Assembly: GCA_001770655.1 (NCBI GenBank) | Contig: MERQ01000086.1 | Span: 18,948-82,947, forward strand | DNA length: 64,000 nt | Reading direction: 5' to 3' | Origin: Betaproteobacteria bacterium RIFCSPLOWO2_12_FULL_68_20 | GTDB taxonomy: Bacteria; Pseudomonadota; Gammaproteobacteria; Burkholderiales; SG8-39 | In this document: positions 45,090 to 61,568 of the stretch, piece after piece | Layout: each line of letters opens with the position of its first letter | Numbering within the stretch: the stretch's first letter is position 1 | Position numbers and translations under genes: made by a program | Notes under the pieces: model-generated | What the model saw: the letters and a program-made list of their open reading frames with translations, nothing else | Databases searched by the model: none | Told to the model about the DNA's origin: nothing

Positions 45090-46205
45090 ATGGCCCCGCC
45101 TGAGGCGATCCCTTTCGTCGACCTGAAGGCCCAGTACGCCGCCCTGCGCGAAAGCATCGACGCGCGCATCCGGCGCGTGCTCGACCACGGGCAGTACGTC
45201 ATGGGCCCGGAAGTGCGCGAGTTGGAGGAGCGGCTCGAGGCCTGGACCGGGGCCAAGCACTGCGTGACCGTCGCTTCGGGCACCGAGGCGCTGCTCATTT
45301 CGCTCATGGCGCTCGGCGTGAAGCCCGGCGACGAGGTGGTGACGACGCCCTTCACCTTCGTCGCCACGGCCGAGATGATCGTGCTCCTCGGCGCGAAGCC
45401 CGTGTTCGTGGACGTGGAAGCCGACACCGCCAACATCGACGCCTCGAAGATCGAGGCGGCGATCACCCCGCGCACGCGCGCGATCCTGCCGGTGTCGCTC
45501 TACGGCCAGCCCGCCGACATGGACGAGATCAACGCGATCGCGGCGAGGCACGGGCTGCCGGTCATCGAGGACGCGGCGCAGAGCTTCGGCGCGACCTACA
45601 AGGGCAGAAAGAGCTGCAACCTCTCCACGATCGGCTGCACCAGCTTCTATCCCTCCAAGCCGCTCGGCTGCTACGGCGACGGCGGGGCGATTCTCACGAG
45701 CGACGACGCGCTCGCGCAGGCCGCGCGCGAGATCCGCGTGCACGGCGATTCGGGCCGCTACCGGCACACGCGCATCGGGGTCGGCGGGCGCATGGACACG
45801 ATCCAGTGCGCGGTGGTGCTGGCGAAGCTGGAACGCTTCGAGTGGGAAGTGAAACGGCGAATTGAAATCGCGTGCCGGTATGACAAGCTGCTGTCGTCCC
45901 GCTTCCGGGTCCTGAAAGTGAGGCCGGACCGTACCAGCGTCCACGCGCAGTACACGGTGCGCGCAGTGAATCGCTCCGCGCTCGAGGCAACACTCAAAGC
46001 GAAGCGCATCCCGACTGCGATCCATTATCCGGAGCCGCTGCACCGGCAGCCCGCCTACGCCGCCATGTTCGCCGCTCGATCGTTTCCCGCGGCGGAGCTC
46101 CTCGCGAGCGAGGTGATCAGCCTGCCGATGCACGCCTACCTGGATGAAGCGGCTCAGTCGCGTGTCGTCGCAGCGATGCACGACGCGCTCGCGCCGGCCG
46201 CCTGA
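45090..46205 (+). CDS. DegT/DnrJ/EryC1 sugar aminotransferase (WbpE-like)
   Basis: A 371-aa PLP enzyme. IPFVDLKAQYAAL, ASGTEALLISLMALG, PFTFVATAEMIVLLGAKPVF, VIEDAAQSFGATYKG and the Schiff-base lysine in CTSFYPSKPLGCYGDGGA are all present. The YGQPADMDEI and SCNLSTIGCTSFYPSKPLG wording is that of WbpE/WlbC, which aminates the 3-keto group of UDP-GlcNAc-uronic acid. No wbpA, wbpB or wbpD homologue is in the window, so the actual keto-sugar substrate is open. Its 3' half recurs as a fragment at 51563. Confidence 0.92.
   Translation: MAPPEAIPFVDLKAQYAALRESIDARIRRVLDHGQYVMGPEVRELEERLEAWTGAKHCVTVASGTEALLISLMALGVKPGDEVVTTPFTFVATAEMIVLLGAKPVFVDVEADTANIDASKIEAAITPRTRAILPVSLYGQPADMDEINAIAARHGLPVIEDAAQSFGATYKGRKSCNLSTIGCTSFYPSKPLGCYGDGGAILTSDDALAQAAREIRVHGDSGRYRHTRIGVGGRMDTIQCAVVLAKLERFEWEVKRRIEIACRYDKLLSSRFRVLKVRPDRTSVHAQYTVRAVNRSALEATLKAKRIPTAIHYPEPLHRQPAYAAMFAARSFPAAELLASEVISLPMHAYLDEAAQSRVVAAMHDALAPAA
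45628..46205 (+). repeat. direct repeat copy 1 (3' half of the aminotransferase gene)
   Basis: From CGATCGGCTGCACCAGC to the end of the gene this DNA recurs at 51563-52134 in the same orientation. Similarity is nearly complete at the protein level over the first 75 residues and drifts afterwards. This copy belongs to the intact gene. Confidence 0.88.
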
Positions 46206-51562: not shown

Positions 51563-52131
51563 CGATCGGCTGCACCAGCTTCTACCCGTCCAAGCCGCTT
51601 GGCTGCTACGGCGACGGCGGGGCGATCTTCACGAGCGACGATGCGCTCGCGCAGGCCGCGCGCGAGATCCGCGTGCACGGCGAGGCCGGCCGCTACCGGC
51701 ACACACGCATCGGCGTGGGCGGTCGCATGGACACGATCCAGTGCGCGGTGGTGCTCGCCAAGCTCGAGCGCTTCGACTGGGAGGTCGAGCGGCGCATCGC
51801 TATCGGGCGCCGGTACGACGCCTTGCTCGCTTCGTCGGTGCGGCTGCTCAAGGTCCGGCCCGATCGCACCAGCGTCTACGCGCAGTACACGGTGCGGGCG
51901 CGGGATCGCGCCGCGCTCCAGGCCGGTCTCGAGACAGGCGGCATCCCGACCGCGATTCACTACCCGCTCGCGCTGCATCAGCAGCCCGCCTACGCGGCGC
52001 TCGCTCCCGGTGCGAGCCTGCCTCGCGCCGAGCAGCTCGCGCGCGAAGTGATCAGCCTGCCGATGCACGCGTACCTGCGGGAGGCCGACCAGGAGCAGAT
52101 CGCCGGCGCGGTCGCGGCGGCGATGAGATAA
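51563..52131 (+). pseudogene. 5'-truncated second copy of the WbpE-like aminotransferase
   Basis: In one frame this encodes the C-terminal 190 residues of the aminotransferase at 45090, from SIGCTSFYPSKPLGCYGDGG (with the PLP lysine) through YAQYTVRARDRAALQ to the end. The N-terminal half, including the PLP-phosphate and Asp motifs, is missing, and the 58 bases upstream are unrelated. An internal ATG at 51673 would give 152 residues with no lysine, so the product should be inactive. Confidence 0.88.
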
Positions 52132-52217: not shown

Positions 52218-53723
52218 ATGAAACTCAATCCGACGCGGGAAGCCAACCTCGCTCTGCTTGCGAGCTGCCTGTGGCCGTTCCTCAACCTTGTGAACTACAA
52301 CAAGAGCCAGCTCGAGGTTGAATATGTGCTGGTGCTCCTGTCGGTTCCGGTCCTGCTGTTCGTCTGCGGAATCGGCGCATTGCGGCTTCTTGGCCGATTC
52401 TCCAGGCGGGACGAGACGCCGCGATTCACGTTTGCCCTGGCTATCGCGGTCGCGCTGTTCTTCAACTACCACGCGATATACGACGTTCTCGCCGCCCTGG
52501 CCTTGCCGCGCATCAACTACGCATATCTTACGCTGTCGACCTTGCTTCTGCTCGCAGCGCTGCGCTTTTTCAATCCGGCCGTGATCCGGGTGAGCCTCGT
52601 ATTCTTCGTCGTTGCCGGCGCGATCCCCGCGTTCGAGGCAATGAAGTACCGGAGCGGCGGAACGGCCTCTTCGGCGCAAATGAACGCGAGGCCCCTGTCA
52701 CCGCTTTCTCCGGAAACAAGGAAGCGAAACGTCTACCACGTCATCCTGGATTCCTATCCCCGTGACGATCAGCTCAGGAAATTGTTCGGTTTCGACAATT
52801 CGAGGACTCTCGATGCCTTGCGCAATCGCGGGTTCTACGTTGCAGCGCAGGCTCTCGCGAACTATCCCAGCACGTTCCTGTCGGTGAGCTCCGGTCTCGT
52901 CGGCGAGTATTTGCTTGGAGACGGCGACGAGTTCCAGGACATGCTGCAATTCGCCGATCTGATGCGCGGGAACAATCCAATGATCAGGCGCTTGAAGCTC
53001 TCGGGCTACAAGTACGTTCACGCGCAAGGCCATCTCTACACGATCTGTGTCGGGTACGAAGACTGGTGCATCGACCCGTACCAGCAGCTTCTCAGCTCGC
53101 GCGATCTGCTGGACGTGATCGTTCAGACCACGCCGATCAGGCGCTTTTGGCGTCCGATAGTCCGGGGATCCGCTGTGCCGCTTTCCTATCTTCAAGCCCG
53201 GCTTGCTGCGATTCTCGAAGCCGAGAAGGGTCCTCTGGCCGTATTCGCGCATATCCTTCCGCCCCACTCGCCGTGGACGGTGACAGCGGACTGCCGGCCC
53301 AGAGACGATCCAGCGCTGGCGTGGAGCGAGAGCACGAAGCAGCATTTTCTGGACAGCTTGACTTGCGTAAACACCCAGCTCACGCAATTCGTCGGTTTCC
53401 TGGATTCGGCCGATCCGGAGGCGATCGTCGTCATTCAATCCGATCACGGCACCAATTCGCTGCTCGCCGCGGATTCCGCCGTCAAGCGCTGGACGGCGGA
53501 GCAGTTCGAAGAGCGATTCGCCATCCTCATGGCGGTCCGGGTGCCGGAGCAATGCCGCAAGTGGCTCTACCCTTCGATGTCGCCCGTGGACGTCCCCGCG
53601 CTCGTGTTTGCGTGCCTGGAGGGCAAGCAACCGGTTTACCGGCCGTACCAGTCGTTCCTCGTCGAAGTCCCCACGGACAAGGAGCCGGGGCGCGTCAAGC
53701 GGTATCGGCGGGCAGCACGATGA
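52218..53723 (+). CDS. membrane-anchored sulfatase/phosphoethanolamine-transferase-like protein
   Basis: A 501-aa protein: five transmembrane helices in the first 140 residues, then a periplasmic alkaline-phosphatase-superfamily domain. Metal and nucleophile motifs are NVYHVILDSYPRDD, YPSTFLSVSSGL (Thr or Ser nucleophile), FAHILPPHSPW and VVIQSDHGTNS. The build is that of LTA-synthase or EptA-like transferases, which move phospho-groups onto envelope glycans, but the substrate is unknown. ATG 52218 is where the first helix starts. Codon third positions are less GC-rich than those of its neighbours. Confidence 0.82.
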   Translation: MKLNPTREANLALLASCLWPFLNLVNYNKSQLEVEYVLVLLSVPVLLFVCGIGALRLLGRFSRRDETPRFTFALAIAVALFFNYHAIYDVLAALALPRINYAYLTLSTLLLLAALRFFNPAVIRVSLVFFVVAGAIPAFEAMKYRSGGTASSAQMNARPLSPLSPETRKRNVYHVILDSYPRDDQLRKLFGFDNSRTLDALRNRGFYVAAQALANYPSTFLSVSSGLVGEYLLGDGDEFQDMLQFADLMRGNNPMIRRLKLSGYKYVHAQGHLYTICVGYEDWCIDPYQQLLSSRDLLDVIVQTTPIRRFWRPIVRGSAVPLSYLQARLAAILEAEKGPLAVFAHILPPHSPWTVTADCRPRDDPALAWSESTKQHFLDSLTCVNTQLTQFVGFLDSADPEAIVVIQSDHGTNSLLAADSAVKRWTAEQFEERFAILMAVRVPEQCRKWLYPSMSPVDVPALVFACLEGKQPVYRPYQSFLVEVPTDKEPGRVKRYRRAAR

Positions 53724-53769
53724 CGGGCCGGAAGAGCGAGTGCTAGAATATTTTAACTTGCGACCACCT

Positions 53770-54015
53770 ATGGACTTTACCGGGATGTCCCGCGTTCGAG
53801 CGCTTCGATTGGTCGCGCTGGCGTTCTTGATTGCAGGCGCACCGGCAGCGCATGCGTACCTCGATCCGGGCACGGCCAGCGTCCTTTTCCAGGCGGCGAT
53901 CGCGGGCGTGCTCGCAGCGCTTTTCTACGTGAAGGAAATCTGGCGCCGCGTGAAGGCGTTTTTCACCGGCGAGGAGCGACGCTCCGCGCCGGACGTCTCC
54001 GATCGCAACCCCTGA
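53770..54015 (+). CDS. small YLDPGT membrane protein
   Basis: An 81-aa protein (76 if it starts at ATG 53785, after a better ribosome-binding context). A signal peptide or first helix ends AAHA, then AYLDPGTASVLFQAAIAGVL, the conserved motif of a family of tiny membrane proteins often beside sulfatase-like or glycan genes, a second helix, and a basic tail. Its stop overlaps the methyltransferase start (TGATG). Function unknown; an accessory subunit of the upstream enzyme is a fair guess. Confidence 0.75.
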   Translation: MDFTGMSRVRALRLVALAFLIAGAPAAHAYLDPGTASVLFQAAIAGVLAALFYVKEIWRRVKAFFTGEERRSAPDVSDRNP

Positions 54016-55478
54016 TGTCGCGCGATGCGGCGGTTGGGGGGTCGTTCCGCGATCCCAGCGGGTTCGTTTTCGTTGACTCCGGCACGCTGTATCGCCAAGT
54101 CAACCGGTCGTATCGGGGTCACTACGAAGCTCTGATCGCCTCCGGTCTGTACCGAGATCTGGTCGAGCGCGGCTTGCTGGTTCCGCATGAGGAGGCGGCG
54201 ATTGGCTTGGCGCTCTCCGACGAAGCGTACAAGGTCATCCGGCCGCAGCCGGTTCCCTTCGTGTCCTATCCCTACGAGTGGTGTTTCGGCCAGCTCAAGG
54301 CGGCGGCGCTGGCGACACTCGAATTGCAGCGGATCGCCCTGTCGAAAAGCATGACCCTCAAGGACGCGAGCGCCTACAACGTTCAGTTCATCGGGACGCG
54401 GCCAGTTTTCATCGACACGCTGTCGTTCGAGCGTTACGAGGAGGGTGCGCCATGGGCTGCGTACAGGCAGTTCTGTCAGCATTTCCTCGCCCCTCTCGCC
54501 TTGATGGCGTACAGGGACGTGCGCTTGGGGCAGCTGCTGCGCGCCAATATCGACGGCGTCCCGCTCGACCTTGCCGCCCGCCTGTTGCCCGCCCGCAGCA
54601 TGGCCTGCCTGCCAATCCTGCTCCACATTCACCTGCACGCTAGAAGCAAACCCGTGCAGGCCCCGTCGCGCCCGCGGGATAAGGCGTCGCACCGGCCGAT
54701 AAGCGCTCGCGCCATGATGGCGCTCATCGACAGCCTCCGGCAAGGTATCGAATCGTTGCGCTGGCGCCCCGAGGAGTCTATCTGGCGCGAGTACTACCGC
54801 GACCTGTCGTACTCCGATGCGGAAGTGGCGCGGAAGAAATCGCTGGTGTCCGAATTTCTGGATCTCGCCGGGCGGGATACGGTCTGGGACCTGGGCGCCA
54901 ACACCGGTGTCTACAGCCGGATCGCCGCATCCAGGGGCATCTATACAGTGTGTTCGGATTTCGACCCGGCATGCATCGAGCTGAGCTATCTGGACGCGTG
55001 CCGAAACGATGAGCGCAGCCTCTTGCCTCTTATTCTGGACCTCGTCAATCCGAGTCCGTCACTCGGCTGGAACCATGCGGAGCGCAGCTCGCTCGTCGAG
55101 CGCGGACCCGCGGATACCGTGCTGATGCTCGCGCTGGTCCATCATCTCGTGATCGCCAATAACGTCCCGTTCGGCCACCTTGCCGGTTTTGCTGCACGGG
55201 TATGCCGGAATCTGATCGTCGAATTCGTGCCGAAGCGGGATCCCATGGTGGAACGCCTGCTTGCGAGTCGCAGGGACGTTTTTCCGGAGTACGAGCAGGG
55301 CGCGTTCGAGGCGGCGTTCGAGCGCCGATTCACAATCAGGCGCAGAGACGCCGTGACCGCCACCGGACGAATGTTGTATTTGATGACTTCCAAAAAGCCG
55401 GCCGATCCGCGAGAGGGATCGGAACCGGCGGCATTTCAGGACCGCGTCGCCGCGGCAGCGGCGCGCGCTTCGACGTAG
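54015..55478 (+). CDS. large SAM-dependent methyltransferase (NoeA-like)
   Basis: A 487-aa protein with two parts. The N-terminal 230 residues begin SFRDPSGFVFVDSGTLYRQV and resemble NoeA-type proteins of glycan clusters; the C-terminal part is a class I methyltransferase (DTVWDLGANTGVYSRIAASR, CSDFDPACIEL, ADTVLMLALVHHLVI). The combination is typical for this family, not a chance fusion. It is coupled to the YLDPGT gene and converges on the gene at 55436, overlapping it by 43 bases. Substrate unknown. Confidence 0.8.
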   Translation: MSRDAAVGGSFRDPSGFVFVDSGTLYRQVNRSYRGHYEALIASGLYRDLVERGLLVPHEEAAIGLALSDEAYKVIRPQPVPFVSYPYEWCFGQLKAAALATLELQRIALSKSMTLKDASAYNVQFIGTRPVFIDTLSFERYEEGAPWAAYRQFCQHFLAPLALMAYRDVRLGQLLRANIDGVPLDLAARLLPARSMACLPILLHIHLHARSKPVQAPSRPRDKASHRPISARAMMALIDSLRQGIESLRWRPEESIWREYYRDLSYSDAEVARKKSLVSEFLDLAGRDTVWDLGANTGVYSRIAASRGIYTVCSDFDPACIELSYLDACRNDERSLLPLILDLVNPSPSLGWNHAERSSLVERGPADTVLMLALVHHLVIANNVPFGHLAGFAARVCRNLIVEFVPKRDPMVERLLASRRDVFPEYEQGAFEAAFERRFTIRRRDAVTATGRMLYLMTSKKPADPREGSEPAAFQDRVAAAAARAST

Positions 55479-59704: not shown

Positions 59705-60633
59705 CGCAGCGTCCACAGGACCCGGTGCGCGACCCGGTTCACCAGGCCGTTCGCGATCAGGTGCCAGGTGCGAAGCCGGCGGAAATTTGCCGGGTCGAGC
59801 TTCGCCGCCGCCCACAGGAGCCTGAGCGCCTCGGCGAAGCGCCCCGATCTCAGGTGCAGCCGCGCCGCGAGTAGCCGCGCGCTGCTCAGCGCCTCGTCCT
59901 TCGCTTCTGCGAATTCGCGCGGCGCGCGCCCGAGGCGGAAATACTCCTCCATCACTTCGAGCGGCTCGGCGGCGCGCTCGGGCGAAACTGGCGCGAACGA
60001 CTGCGAGCCGTCGTGCACGCGGTACGCGGCGAGCATCTCCGGGATGCGGCGGAAGGGGCCTCCGGAAGCGAGCCGCAGCCACAGCTCGAAGTCCGGGATC
60101 TGGCGCAGGCGCTCGTTCCACGGCCCGGCGCGCTCGAACGCGCGGCGCCGCAGGAACACTCCCGGGCCGGGCGCGCACACCAGGCGCAGCACCATCTCGC
60201 GGTGGCTGAATTCCGGGACCGCGACGCGCCGAATCGGCCGGCCGTCCGGATCGACCAGCAGGAAATCGCAGTAGCAGAGCACCGCGTCGGGATGTCTTTC
60301 GAGGCATTCGACGGCCCGGCGCACCGCACCCGGCAGGAGGTAGTCGTCGGCGGCGAGATAGGCGAGCACCTCGCCCCCAGAGCGCGCCCAGCCCCGGTTG
60401 ATCGCGTTCGCCTGGCCGGCGTTTTCCTGCGCGATCACGGTGCAGCGCTCGCGGTATTGCCGCATCAGCTCGCGCGAGCCGTCGCTCGAGCCGTCGTCGA
60501 CCACGATCAGCTCGAGGGGCGCATAGTGCTGCGCGAGCACGCTCTCGATCGCCTGCCGCAGGTACGCGGCCTGGTTGTAGCACGGGATTACGATCGAGAC
60601 CTGCGGCCGGGGCGCGGTCGATTGCGGGCTCAT
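59701..60633 (-). CDS. GT2 glycosyltransferase
   Basis: A 310-aa family 2 transferase with VSIVIPCYNQAAYLRQAIES, IVVDDGSSDGSREL, VLAYLAADDYLLPGAV (DD site) and QIPDFELWLRLAS. It is closely related to the next gene (60630): both carry CAPGPG, RIPE/RVPK...HRVHDGSQSF and a similar helical tail, so they are tandem duplicates. I use ATG 60633 (MSPQST), overlapping the upstream stop by four bases. Confidence 0.9.
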   Translation of the reverse strand: MSPQSTAPRPQVSIVIPCYNQAAYLRQAIESVLAQHYAPLELIVVDDGSSDGSRELMRQYRERCTVIAQENAGQANAINRGWARSGGEVLAYLAADDYLLPGAVRRAVECLERHPDAVLCYCDFLLVDPDGRPIRRVAVPEFSHREMVLRLVCAPGPGVFLRRRAFERAGPWNERLRQIPDFELWLRLASGGPFRRIPEMLAAYRVHDGSQSFAPVSPERAAEPLEVMEEYFRLGRAPREFAEAKDEALSSARLLAARLHLRSGRFAEALRLLWAAAKLDPANFRRLRTWHLIANGLVNRVAHRVLWTLR

Positions 60634-61568
60634 GACCTGGAGCGCCGCCGGTTCAGCCGCCACAGGATCCGGTGCAGGGTCCGGTCAACGACGCTGTCGA
60701 TCACGATCAGGACCGTGCGCTTGCGGAACGCGAGCACCGGCGCGATCGCGAACGCCTGCGCCAGGCGCAGCAGCGCGGTGAACCAGCGCCCGGCGCGCCA
60801 GTGCAGCCGCGCGGTGAGGATGTGCGCCTGGCCGAGCGCGCGCCGGCGAAACGGCGCCACTTCGGCGGGCAGGTCCGGCCGCCGAAGGTACTGGGCGAGC
60901 ACCTTCCGCGGCTCCTCGGCCTTCTGCCGCGCCGAGCGCGCGTACGATTGCGACTCCTCGTGCACGCGATGCAGCGCGAGCACCTTCGGGACGCGCACGA
61001 ACCGGCCTTGCAGGCCGAGCCGGAGCCAATACTCGTAGTCGGGAACCTGGCGCAGCGTCGTGTCCCAGCCGCCCGCAGCCTCGAACACGCGGCGCCGGAA
61101 CAGCGCCCCCGGGCCGGGCGCGCACACTGCGTCGACCACCATCTCGTAATAGCTGTACTCGGGCGCATTGACCTCGCGGATGAAGTGTGAGCGCGGGTCG
61201 ATCAGGTTGAAATCCGGGTAGGCGAGCACCGCGTCCGGGTTCGCGCGCAGGCATTCGACCAGGGTGTCGACGGCCTCAGGGAGAAGCGCGTCGTCCGCGC
61301 TCAGGTACCCGAGCAGCTCGCCGCGCGCCAGGCCCCAGCCCTTGTTGAGCGTCGCCGCCTGCCCCATGTTGGGATGCGTCTCCCAGTGGAGCGCGCTGCC
61401 GTGCTTGGCGAGCACCGCGCGCGTGTCGTCGGTCGAACCGTCGTCGAGCACGATGAGCTCGACGCGGGGGTAGCGCTGCGCGAACACGCTCCGGATCGCC
61501 TCGTCTACGAACTCCGCGTAGTTGTATGCGGGGATCACGATCGACACCAGGGGATTGGCCTCGGACAT
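60630..61568 (-). CDS. GT2 glycosyltransferase
   Basis: A 312-aa family 2 transferase: VSIVIPAYNYAEFVDEAIRS, LIVLDDGSTDDTRAV, LLGYLSADDALLPEAV and QVPDYEYWLRLGLQG. It parallels the 59701 protein along its length, including YPDFNLIDPRSHFIREVNAP against the neighbour's YCDFLLVDPDG segment. It starts four bases from the GT4 stop. Probably transfers a sugar similar to that of its twin. Confidence 0.9.
   Translation of the reverse strand: MSEANPLVSIVIPAYNYAEFVDEAIRSVFAQRYPRVELIVLDDGSTDDTRAVLAKHGSALHWETHPNMGQAATLNKGWGLARGELLGYLSADDALLPEAVDTLVECLRANPDAVLAYPDFNLIDPRSHFIREVNAPEYSYYEMVVDAVCAPGPGALFRRRVFEAAGGWDTTLRQVPDYEYWLRLGLQGRFVRVPKVLALHRVHEESQSYARSARQKAEEPRKVLAQYLRRPDLPAEVAPFRRRALGQAHILTARLHWRAGRWFTALLRLAQAFAIAPVLAFRKRTVLIVIDSVVDRTLHRILWRLNRRRSRS

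Follow-up and report, generated by a model that had tools for sequence, protein, structure and literature searches.

A recurrent noeA-noeB-type gene trio with a membrane mini-protein and its possible role in methyl-phosphate modification of surface glycans or glycolipids

The genes noeA and noeB were reportedly named as host-range genes in a 1995 paper. They are treated as such in several publications, one of which describes a truncated noeA in a nodulation-deficient strain, and the excerpts of this literature consulted here gave no biochemical function for either gene (PMC4053727, PMC9048898, PMC10945364, PMC3899959). A 2022 study of the Legionella pan-kinome described a NoeA homologue, Lani_1194, that joins a kinase with a methyltransferase; in the excerpts available to us, the fusion is reported for 94% of about two thousand Lani_1194 homologues, the neighbours Lani_1193 and Lani_1195 for 65 and 38%, respectively, of 816 neighbourhoods, and an alkaline-phosphatase fold is predicted for Lani_1195, while a role in decorating either secreted molecules or the envelope is suggested, with the product left unnamed (PMC9758233). 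The kinase-methyltransferase architecture and its conserved neighbours were already known from that study. Here we describe a related locus in a 64,000-nucleotide stretch (the window) of contig MERQ01000086.1 from Betaproteobacteria bacterium RIFCSPLOWO2_12_FULL_68_20, in which a NoeB-like membrane enzyme, a mini-protein with a YLDPGT motif, and a NoeA-like kinase-methyltransferase are encoded in a row at positions 52218-55478. We consider it somewhat better than an even chance (roughly 55%) that this trio is a noeA-noeB-type cassette, probably acquired horizontally, that modifies a surface glycan or glycolipid with phosphate and makes methyl phosphate.

The three genes lie on the + strand in the order sulfatase-like enzyme, mini-protein, and methyltransferase. 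The NoeB-like membrane enzyme with an alkaline-phosphatase/sulfatase fold is encoded at 52218-53723 (501 amino acids), the mini-protein at 53770-54015 (81 amino acids, or 76 if the second ATG at 53785 is used), and the NoeA/Lani_1194-type protein at 54015-55478 (487 amino acids). An initial annotation of this DNA, made from the sequence alone, had noted that the stop codon of the mini-protein overlaps the start of the methyltransferase gene, and the TGA (54013-54015) and the ATG indeed had one base in common, at 54015. The annotation had also proposed that the three genes form a coupled unit with the mini-protein as a possible accessory subunit, and had suggested a co-occurrence analysis as a check. 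When 229 genomes of the same class were searched with the mini-protein and the kinase-methyltransferase, the former was found in 12 and the latter in 10, one of these with a 60-position fragment only; both genes were present in eight genomes, the mini-protein alone in four, and the kinase-methyltransferase alone in two. Co-occurrence was well above chance (Fisher p 1.3e-10; 2e-9 when the window genome is left out), and the single-sequence search had overlooked a further genome (G041) in which all three genes stand in a row.

A wider draw of 349 genomes yielded 20 with a mini-like match at an expect value (E) <= 0.01, the window genome included. From the 27 mini-anchored loci (16 from the wider draw and 11 from the class draw), ten mini-like loci (L048-L057) that scored below 39 bits or gave no profile hit were excluded, and 17 were counted. 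A phosphotransferase-type gene was present within 2.5 kb in 17/17 and a NoeA-like gene in 11/17, the phosphotransferase profile having been built from 12 sequences, 8 of which came from loci among the 17; the hit in L024 was weak by this profile and strong by Pfam. A collection scan seeded with 11 kinase-methyltransferases matched at least 503 relatives, of which the 80 top-scoring loci were kept; in 77 of these the mini-protein gene neighbours the kinase-methyltransferase gene in the same orientation, upstream in 75 and downstream in 2. No adjacent mini-protein was found in L124, nor in L071 and L116, whose contigs stop at the kinase-methyltransferase gene or shortly before it. Within the retrieved stretches, 55 of the 80 loci had a phosphotransferase-like open reading frame (ORF), as did 31 of the 41 loci flanked by 3 kb or more on each side. 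These results confirmed the trio and its recurrence across many kinds of bacteria, and both the coupling of the three genes and the partner role of the mini-protein held up.

The 487-residue protein is a member of the NoeA/Lani_1194 family and consists of a kinase-like half and a methyltransferase half. In tblastn it showed 35-36% identity over 93-96% of its length with S. meliloti NoeA (E 3e-69 to 8e-69 for the Sinorhizobium/Ensifer rows among the matches listed), and its model had a predicted local distance difference test score (pLDDT) of 84.5 and a predicted template modelling score (pTM) of 0.87. The initial annotation as a NoeA-like methyltransferase thus stood as far as the family is concerned, and was incomplete in that the protein also has a kinase-like N-terminal half and that its methyltransferase is of the WbdD type, for phosphate. 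WbdD took ranks 1 and 2 in a Foldseek search with the model, and the structural alignment to it gave a Z-score of 16.9 over 184 residues, the aligned rows covering residues 253-462, which correspond to the phosphate-methyltransferase-type domain at 54771-55400 on the + strand. Methylphosphate capping enzyme (Z 17.7) and BCDIN3D (Z 17.0), the latter also active on phosphate, were both among the top structural rows. In sequence searches, the best PDB hits of the methyltransferase-domain profile were four WbdD sequences (E 3e-4 to 5e-4), whereas the whole-protein profile reached WbdD at E 0.28-0.4 only; a single hhalign comparison of the domain with E. coli HS WbdD (L141) gave E 2.7e-10 and 96.8% over a span that includes two histidine residues. 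According to excerpts of the WbdD work, methylation requires H132, H133, and R203, to which the use of a phosphate nucleophile is attributed (PMC3482155). H132 and H133 aligned with H376 and H377 of the NoeA-like protein by three methods (PDB profile search, hhalign, and MAFFT), and H376, H377, and R452 were invariant in 47/47, 11/11, and 14/14 rows. As far as sequence can tell, these findings support homology of the methyltransferase half with WbdD, phosphate specificity included.

In the kinase-like half (54015-54764, + strand), R27, D117-x4-N122, and D134 form a putative active site. The four residues were invariant in 11/11, 47/47, and 32/32 rows, though D117 and N122 were part of one of two patterns that seeded the collection scan, so that their invariance there is partly a result of selection. 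In the model, the order of strands and loops appeared to be that expected of the C-lobe of a kinase. For Lani_1194, the excerpts consulted list an Arg in place of K72 of PKA together with equivalents of D166, N171, and D184, and R27, D117, N122, and D134 were assigned to PKA positions by that text rather than by superposition (PMC9758233). Motif, model, and publication together point to a kinase step. Among the 50 structural matches listed for the NoeA-like model there was no protein kinase other than WbdD, which was matched through its methyltransferase domain; because the methyltransferase domain fills this list, the lack of kinases in it is no evidence against a kinase fold.

The model of the NoeB-like enzyme (pLDDT 82.4, pTM 0.83) had five long N-terminal helices (residues 5-27, 34-59, 64-82, 101-117, and 120-146) and some shorter ones, followed by a C-terminal domain that holds S408-D-H-G411, in agreement with the five helices and the SDHG-containing domain of the initial annotation. 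EptA and MCR-1 took Foldseek ranks 1 and 2 with the membrane part included in a loose whole-chain fit (root-mean-square deviation 14.7), and were followed by EptC and then by sulfatases. In the structural alignment, EptC, YejM, and BcsG reached Z 20-21, level with sulfatases. Type I sulfatases carry a formylglycine-forming Cys or Ser in a C/S-x-P-x-R motif. The local sequence of the NoeB-like enzyme, NYPSTFLSVSS, lacked this motif and had a Thr at the nucleophile position. When phosphotransferase ORFs within set lengths and scores were aligned (69 rows), the position of T219 was Thr in 68 and Ser in one, and the predicted metal ligands were conserved (D178 in 68/69, H350 in 69/69, D409 in 69/69, and H410 in 62/69). 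Model and aligned rows support an alkaline-phosphatase-superfamily domain behind N-terminal membrane helices, with an alkaline-phosphatase-type fold and a Thr nucleophile. Because of the Thr nucleophile and the EptA/MCR-type model, phosphate chemistry is likelier than the sulfate chemistry that the sulfatase-like label had implied.

The window mini-protein had no Pfam family above the cut-off and no NCBIfam match, and no paper containing the YLDPGT string was found in the open-licence literature searched. We compared 97 family members, all scoring above 40 bits, with the rows registered on a Y-x-D-type pattern. The leading Y (97 of 97), D (96), and P (91) were partly fixed by this registration. 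Beyond them, T/S at +5 (94/97), G at +6 (94/97; A in the window member), S at +7 (95/97), and Q at +11 (94/97) were conserved, and a hydrophobic stretch was followed by K/R at +25 (91/97) and W at +28 (83/97). The part from the Tyr onward had a median of 51 residues and was predicted to lie N-out and C-in. Position -1 before the Tyr was Ala in 77/97 members and position -3 was Ala in 57/97, which suggested processing by signal peptidase I, and the mini-protein looks like a signal-peptidase-processed single-span peptide. In the window member, the predicted signal peptide (53770-53856, + strand) would end with A-H-A before Tyr30, and the YLDPGTAS motif (53857-53880, + strand) would be the mature N-terminus. 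A mini-protein search of plasmids gave no match, though NoeA-anchored plasmid loci contain the mini-protein, which reflects the limit of a short query. Several of the excluded loci L048-L057 showed a YIGPG layout. L048, L049, L050, L051, L054, and L055 encode small proteins with a hydrophobic start, an AYxGxGxG-type motif, a second hydrophobic stretch, and a basic tail, a layout by which they may form a sister family to the YLDPGT proteins.

From these features, we propose the following order of reactions, in which order and substrates alike are inferred. In the cytosol, the kinase-like half of the NoeA-like protein would phosphorylate a hydroxyl group, and its WbdD-like half would then methylate that phosphate to give methyl phosphate, a specificity supported by homology and the three conserved residues. 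The mini-protein would be exported and cut by signal peptidase, leaving a mature single-span peptide of about 50 residues with YLDPGTxS on the outer side of the membrane and the basic tail inside, as the family pattern implies; judging from the gene association, it may act as a membrane adaptor that holds both enzymes at one site. On the outer face, the NoeB-like EptA/MCR/LtaS-type transferase, for which fold and nucleophile are supported, would pass a phospho-group via phospho-Thr219. The earlier proposal that one enzyme is cytosolic and the other extracytoplasmic is supported as a prediction. Relatives were found on contigs labelled Chloroflexi, Bacillota, and Altiarchaeales (archaeal), so lipopolysaccharide is unlikely as the general substrate, and lipopolysaccharide-only modification as the general function was rejected. 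A closed trans-membrane cycle, with the NoeA-like protein inside, the NoeB-like enzyme outside, and the YLDPGT peptide coupling both faces, is a bolder reading that we regard as unlikely. At the inner face, the NoeA-like protein would phosphorylate a lipid alcohol (diacylglycerol or polyprenol) and methylate it to a lipid methyl phosphate; at the outer face, the NoeB-like enzyme would move the methyl phosphate via phospho-Thr219 onto a glycan and set free the lipid alcohol, which would return to NoeA. If true, this would be a very widely distributed methyl-phosphate transferase system, and NoeA/NoeB would be tailoring a rhizobial symbiotic signal.

A number of observations weigh against the proposed methyl-phosphate cassette. 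The kinase-like half matched no family in Pfam (RIO1 appeared in 1/47 rows at E 0.066), gave one chance hit at E 2 against PDB sequences, and showed no detectable relation to the WbdD kinase in hhalign (E 0.49). Comparison with APH and Kdo profiles by hhalign was likewise negative, with 94% in the APH-Kdo positive control, the profiles holding 18/30 and 7/15 rows after rows with stops in the stretch read had been dropped. This lack of sequence-profile support for a kinase is expected if the NoeA-like protein is an ordinary O-methyltransferase of sugars or lipids, with a degenerate kinase-like domain that serves for binding, and makes no phosphate; in structural Z (16-18), moreover, WbdD is equalled by many ordinary methyltransferases. 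WbdD R203 falls on R452 in one placement, by MAFFT alone, and Y16 of WbdD, also essential, has no counterpart in the alignment. Since the His pair also occurs in NodS-type methyltransferases according to the excerpts consulted, R452 is the sole discriminating residue (PMC3482155). We nevertheless consider an ordinary O-methyltransferase unlikely: R27, D117, N122, and D134 are invariant in 47/47 rows, as expected of an active site (with the selection of D117 and N122 mentioned above), and R452 matches the Arg that, in the same excerpts, is reported missing from other sugar methyltransferases (PMC3482155). On the side of gene association, the kinase-methyltransferase and mini-protein of one of the eight genomes with both (G108) lie on different contigs, the excluded loci L048-L057 had a phosphotransferase-like ORF in 0/10 and a NoeA-like ORF in 1/10, and the 80 loci of the collection scan were the best-scoring ones and no random sample. 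The pairwise distances of the three proteins correlate (r 0.39, 0.58, and 0.29 over 57 loci, each p <= 0.0005), values that shared ancestry inflates. Finally, the literature searched yielded no biochemical work on a member of either the NoeA or the NoeB family.

Also counting against the proposed cassette, 10 of the 41 well-covered loci had no phosphotransferase-like ORF, and such loci bear on the possibility, which we entertain tentatively, that one polymer receives two independent modifications. The NoeA-like protein would then put a methyl-phosphate cap in the cytosol, of the WbdD kind, on the chain end of a lipid-linked glycan, and the EptA-like enzyme would add phosphoethanolamine or phosphoglycerol outside from a phospholipid donor, with the mini-protein serving the outer enzyme only (compare BcsF with BcsG). 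The placement of EptA, EptC, BcsG, and YejM among the best structural matches is consistent with this, as is the composition of the 17 mini-anchored loci, all of which have the transferase nearby and 6 of which lack a NoeA-like gene within 2.5 kb. However, all ten well-covered loci without a phosphotransferase-like ORF keep the mini-protein next to the kinase-methyltransferase, which argues against a mini-protein that partners the outer enzyme alone. A true sulfatase paired with a methyltransferase acting on a sulfated polysaccharide is very unlikely. It would account for the Pfam Sulfatase match, which is weak for the window protein (22.3 bits, under the cut-off of 25), and for two findings that again count against an EptA-type enzyme: the family profile hit 17 PDB sequences, every one a sulfatase, and true sulfatases tie with EptC in structural Z. 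The Thr at the nucleophile position (Ser in a single row), the missing formylglycine motif, and EptA and MCR-1 as top Foldseek matches, loosely aligned over the membrane part too, speak against it, and sulfate chemistry was rejected on nucleophile and model despite the sulfatase hits and the Z ties.

The composition and surroundings of the genes suggested that the proposed methyl-phosphate cassette has come from elsewhere. The GC content at third codon positions (GC3) was 0.77, 0.78, and 0.78 for the trio, below each of 15 Pfam-matched window genes with the trio excluded (mean 0.891, standard deviation 0.035, minimum 0.830; Mann-Whitney p 0.0012), and the overall GC was 60-65% against 69% for the window. 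This bore out the lower GC3 pointed out in the initial annotation, and the codon-usage comparison suggested there did reveal a difference. Codon-usage distances to the 15 genes were 0.138, 0.204, and 0.145 for the trio and 0.072-0.164 among the 15 themselves, one short comparison gene (0.164) exceeding two members of the trio; in a cruder set of 48 automatic ORFs, the GC3 mean was 0.87 with several values <= 0.78, some of these being wrong-frame picks. The kinase-methyltransferase was absent at E <= 1e-10 from 23 of 24 same-family genomes, some of them incomplete, and the remaining one had a distant copy. In a kinase-methyltransferase tree of 97 rows with 21 phylum labels, the window protein paired with an Eisenbacteria sequence and not with its own class (Shimodaira-Hasegawa approximate likelihood ratio test 86, branch not starred). 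Low GC3, absence from 23/24 same-family genomes, and tree placement together suggest that the cassette was probably, though not provenly, acquired horizontally. Directly upstream, on the + strand at 51563-52131, lies the truncated DegT aminotransferase fragment that had been recognized earlier as bordering the trio. Its Pfam match covers just positions 207-359 of a 360-position profile, and it proved to be a partial copy of degT (45090-46205): 51563-52077 showed 80.7% DNA identity over 517 columns to 45628-46142 of that gene. This duplication, which ends just before the cassette, is a possible trace of an insertion or recombination event.

The surrounding cluster contains sugar-nucleotide enzymes, glycosyltransferases, and one protein with an O-antigen-ligase domain. 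Nine of ten window genes scanned had matches (O-antigen-ligase domain, glycosyltransferases, sugar-nucleotide enzymes, and a methyltransferase); WbdD belongs to O-polysaccharide loci that depend on an ABC transporter (wzm/wzt), whereas no ABC transporter was among these ten genes, and the remaining cluster genes were not scanned for one. An apparent tandem duplication was seen in adjacent ORFs further downstream (59991-60601 and 60938-61548, 68% DNA identity over 617 columns). Elsewhere in the same genome (L138, 7058-8656), a distant second NoeA-like protein scored 159 bits; it had no Pfam match at E <= 0.01 and no mini-protein or phosphotransferase match in the surrounding 16 kb. Among the loci of other genomes, a contig labelled Altiarchaeales archaeon (L103) had a mini-protein, a kinase-methyltransferase, and two phosphotransferase-like genes in a row, and in L024 (164-3588) the neighbours of the mini-protein were a gene of the CDP-glycerol glycerophosphotransferase type and a DUF3413-sulfatase gene; that stretch gave no NoeA hit. 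No constant fourth partner emerged: no Pfam or NCBIfam family occurred in more than 3 of the 89 neighbouring ORFs scanned, which were taken from 182 candidates (136 listed). A second, divergent YidC copy near the mini-protein was observed in L017, L018, and L023, a YidC-type gene beside the mini-protein in L098, and one beside the NoeA-like gene in L140; a YidC profile run over the scanned loci matched L017, L018, L023, and L098 only. The YidC-type gene may encode an insertase dedicated to the small membrane-spanning peptide, and was left out of the main model because it is rare.

What the present analysis adds is a concrete product to seek (methyl phosphate), residues to mutate, and a third gene for the noeA-noeB operon. 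The mini-protein travels with a two-enzyme unit, and the tree of its kinase-methyltransferase spans 21 phylum labels, so one solved case would explain envelope modification in many uncultured lineages.

Comparison with characterized enzymes places each part of the cassette near a different system. EptA, MCR-1, EptC, BcsG, and LtaS use a Thr nucleophile, and enzymes of the EptA/LtaS type take the phospho-group that they transfer from a phospholipid. The NoeB-like enzyme shares the Thr, the overall fold, and the N-terminal membrane helices with them, and differs in its low identity (about 9-16% in the rows listed) and in its pairing with a mini-protein and NoeA. The mini-protein resembles BcsF by description, since BcsF is a single-span subunit that reportedly interacts with BcsG, an EptA-type transferase, whereas the excerpts on BcsF do not mention the signal-peptide and YLDPGT layout (PMC11379886). 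WbdD, the methyl-phosphate chain terminator of E. coli O9a, likewise joins a kinase with a methyltransferase domain bearing the His-His-Arg site. Its domain order is methyltransferase, kinase, and coiled coil, whereas the NoeA-like protein has the kinase-like half N-terminal, the methyltransferase C-terminal, and a short low-confidence helix last; moreover, the kinase halves show no relation detectable by hhalign, and no mini-protein or EptA-like partner is annotated in the O9 cluster of E. coli HS.

The Legionella locus Lani_1193-1194-1195 has the same kinase-methyltransferase architecture and a neighbour of predicted alkaline-phosphatase fold, although the excerpts consulted neither portray Lani_1193 as a processed membrane mini-protein nor mention methyl phosphate as a product (PMC9758233). 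By analogy with a like-ordered locus (L020), we infer that Lani_1193 would be the mini-protein. A further counterpart is the S. meliloti noeA-noeB operon of nod-box n5. No paper linking noeB with methyl phosphate was found in the open-licence literature searched. The operon contains the NoeA homologue and a NoeB that matches Pfam Sulfatase, and between nodL and noeA lies a 71-residue YLDPGTGS mini-protein whose gene overlaps noeA by 23 bases, with noeB following. This mini-protein is annotated as hypothetical in CP130052.1, and its ORF also occurs in Rm1021 and S. medicae WSM419. The gene order is mini-protein, noeA, noeB within a Nod-factor operon in S. meliloti, and noeB, mini-protein, noeA within a polysaccharide cluster in the window. 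Judged by sequence, the S. meliloti noeA-noeB locus is nevertheless the same trio, with the mini-protein as the third gene of the operon.

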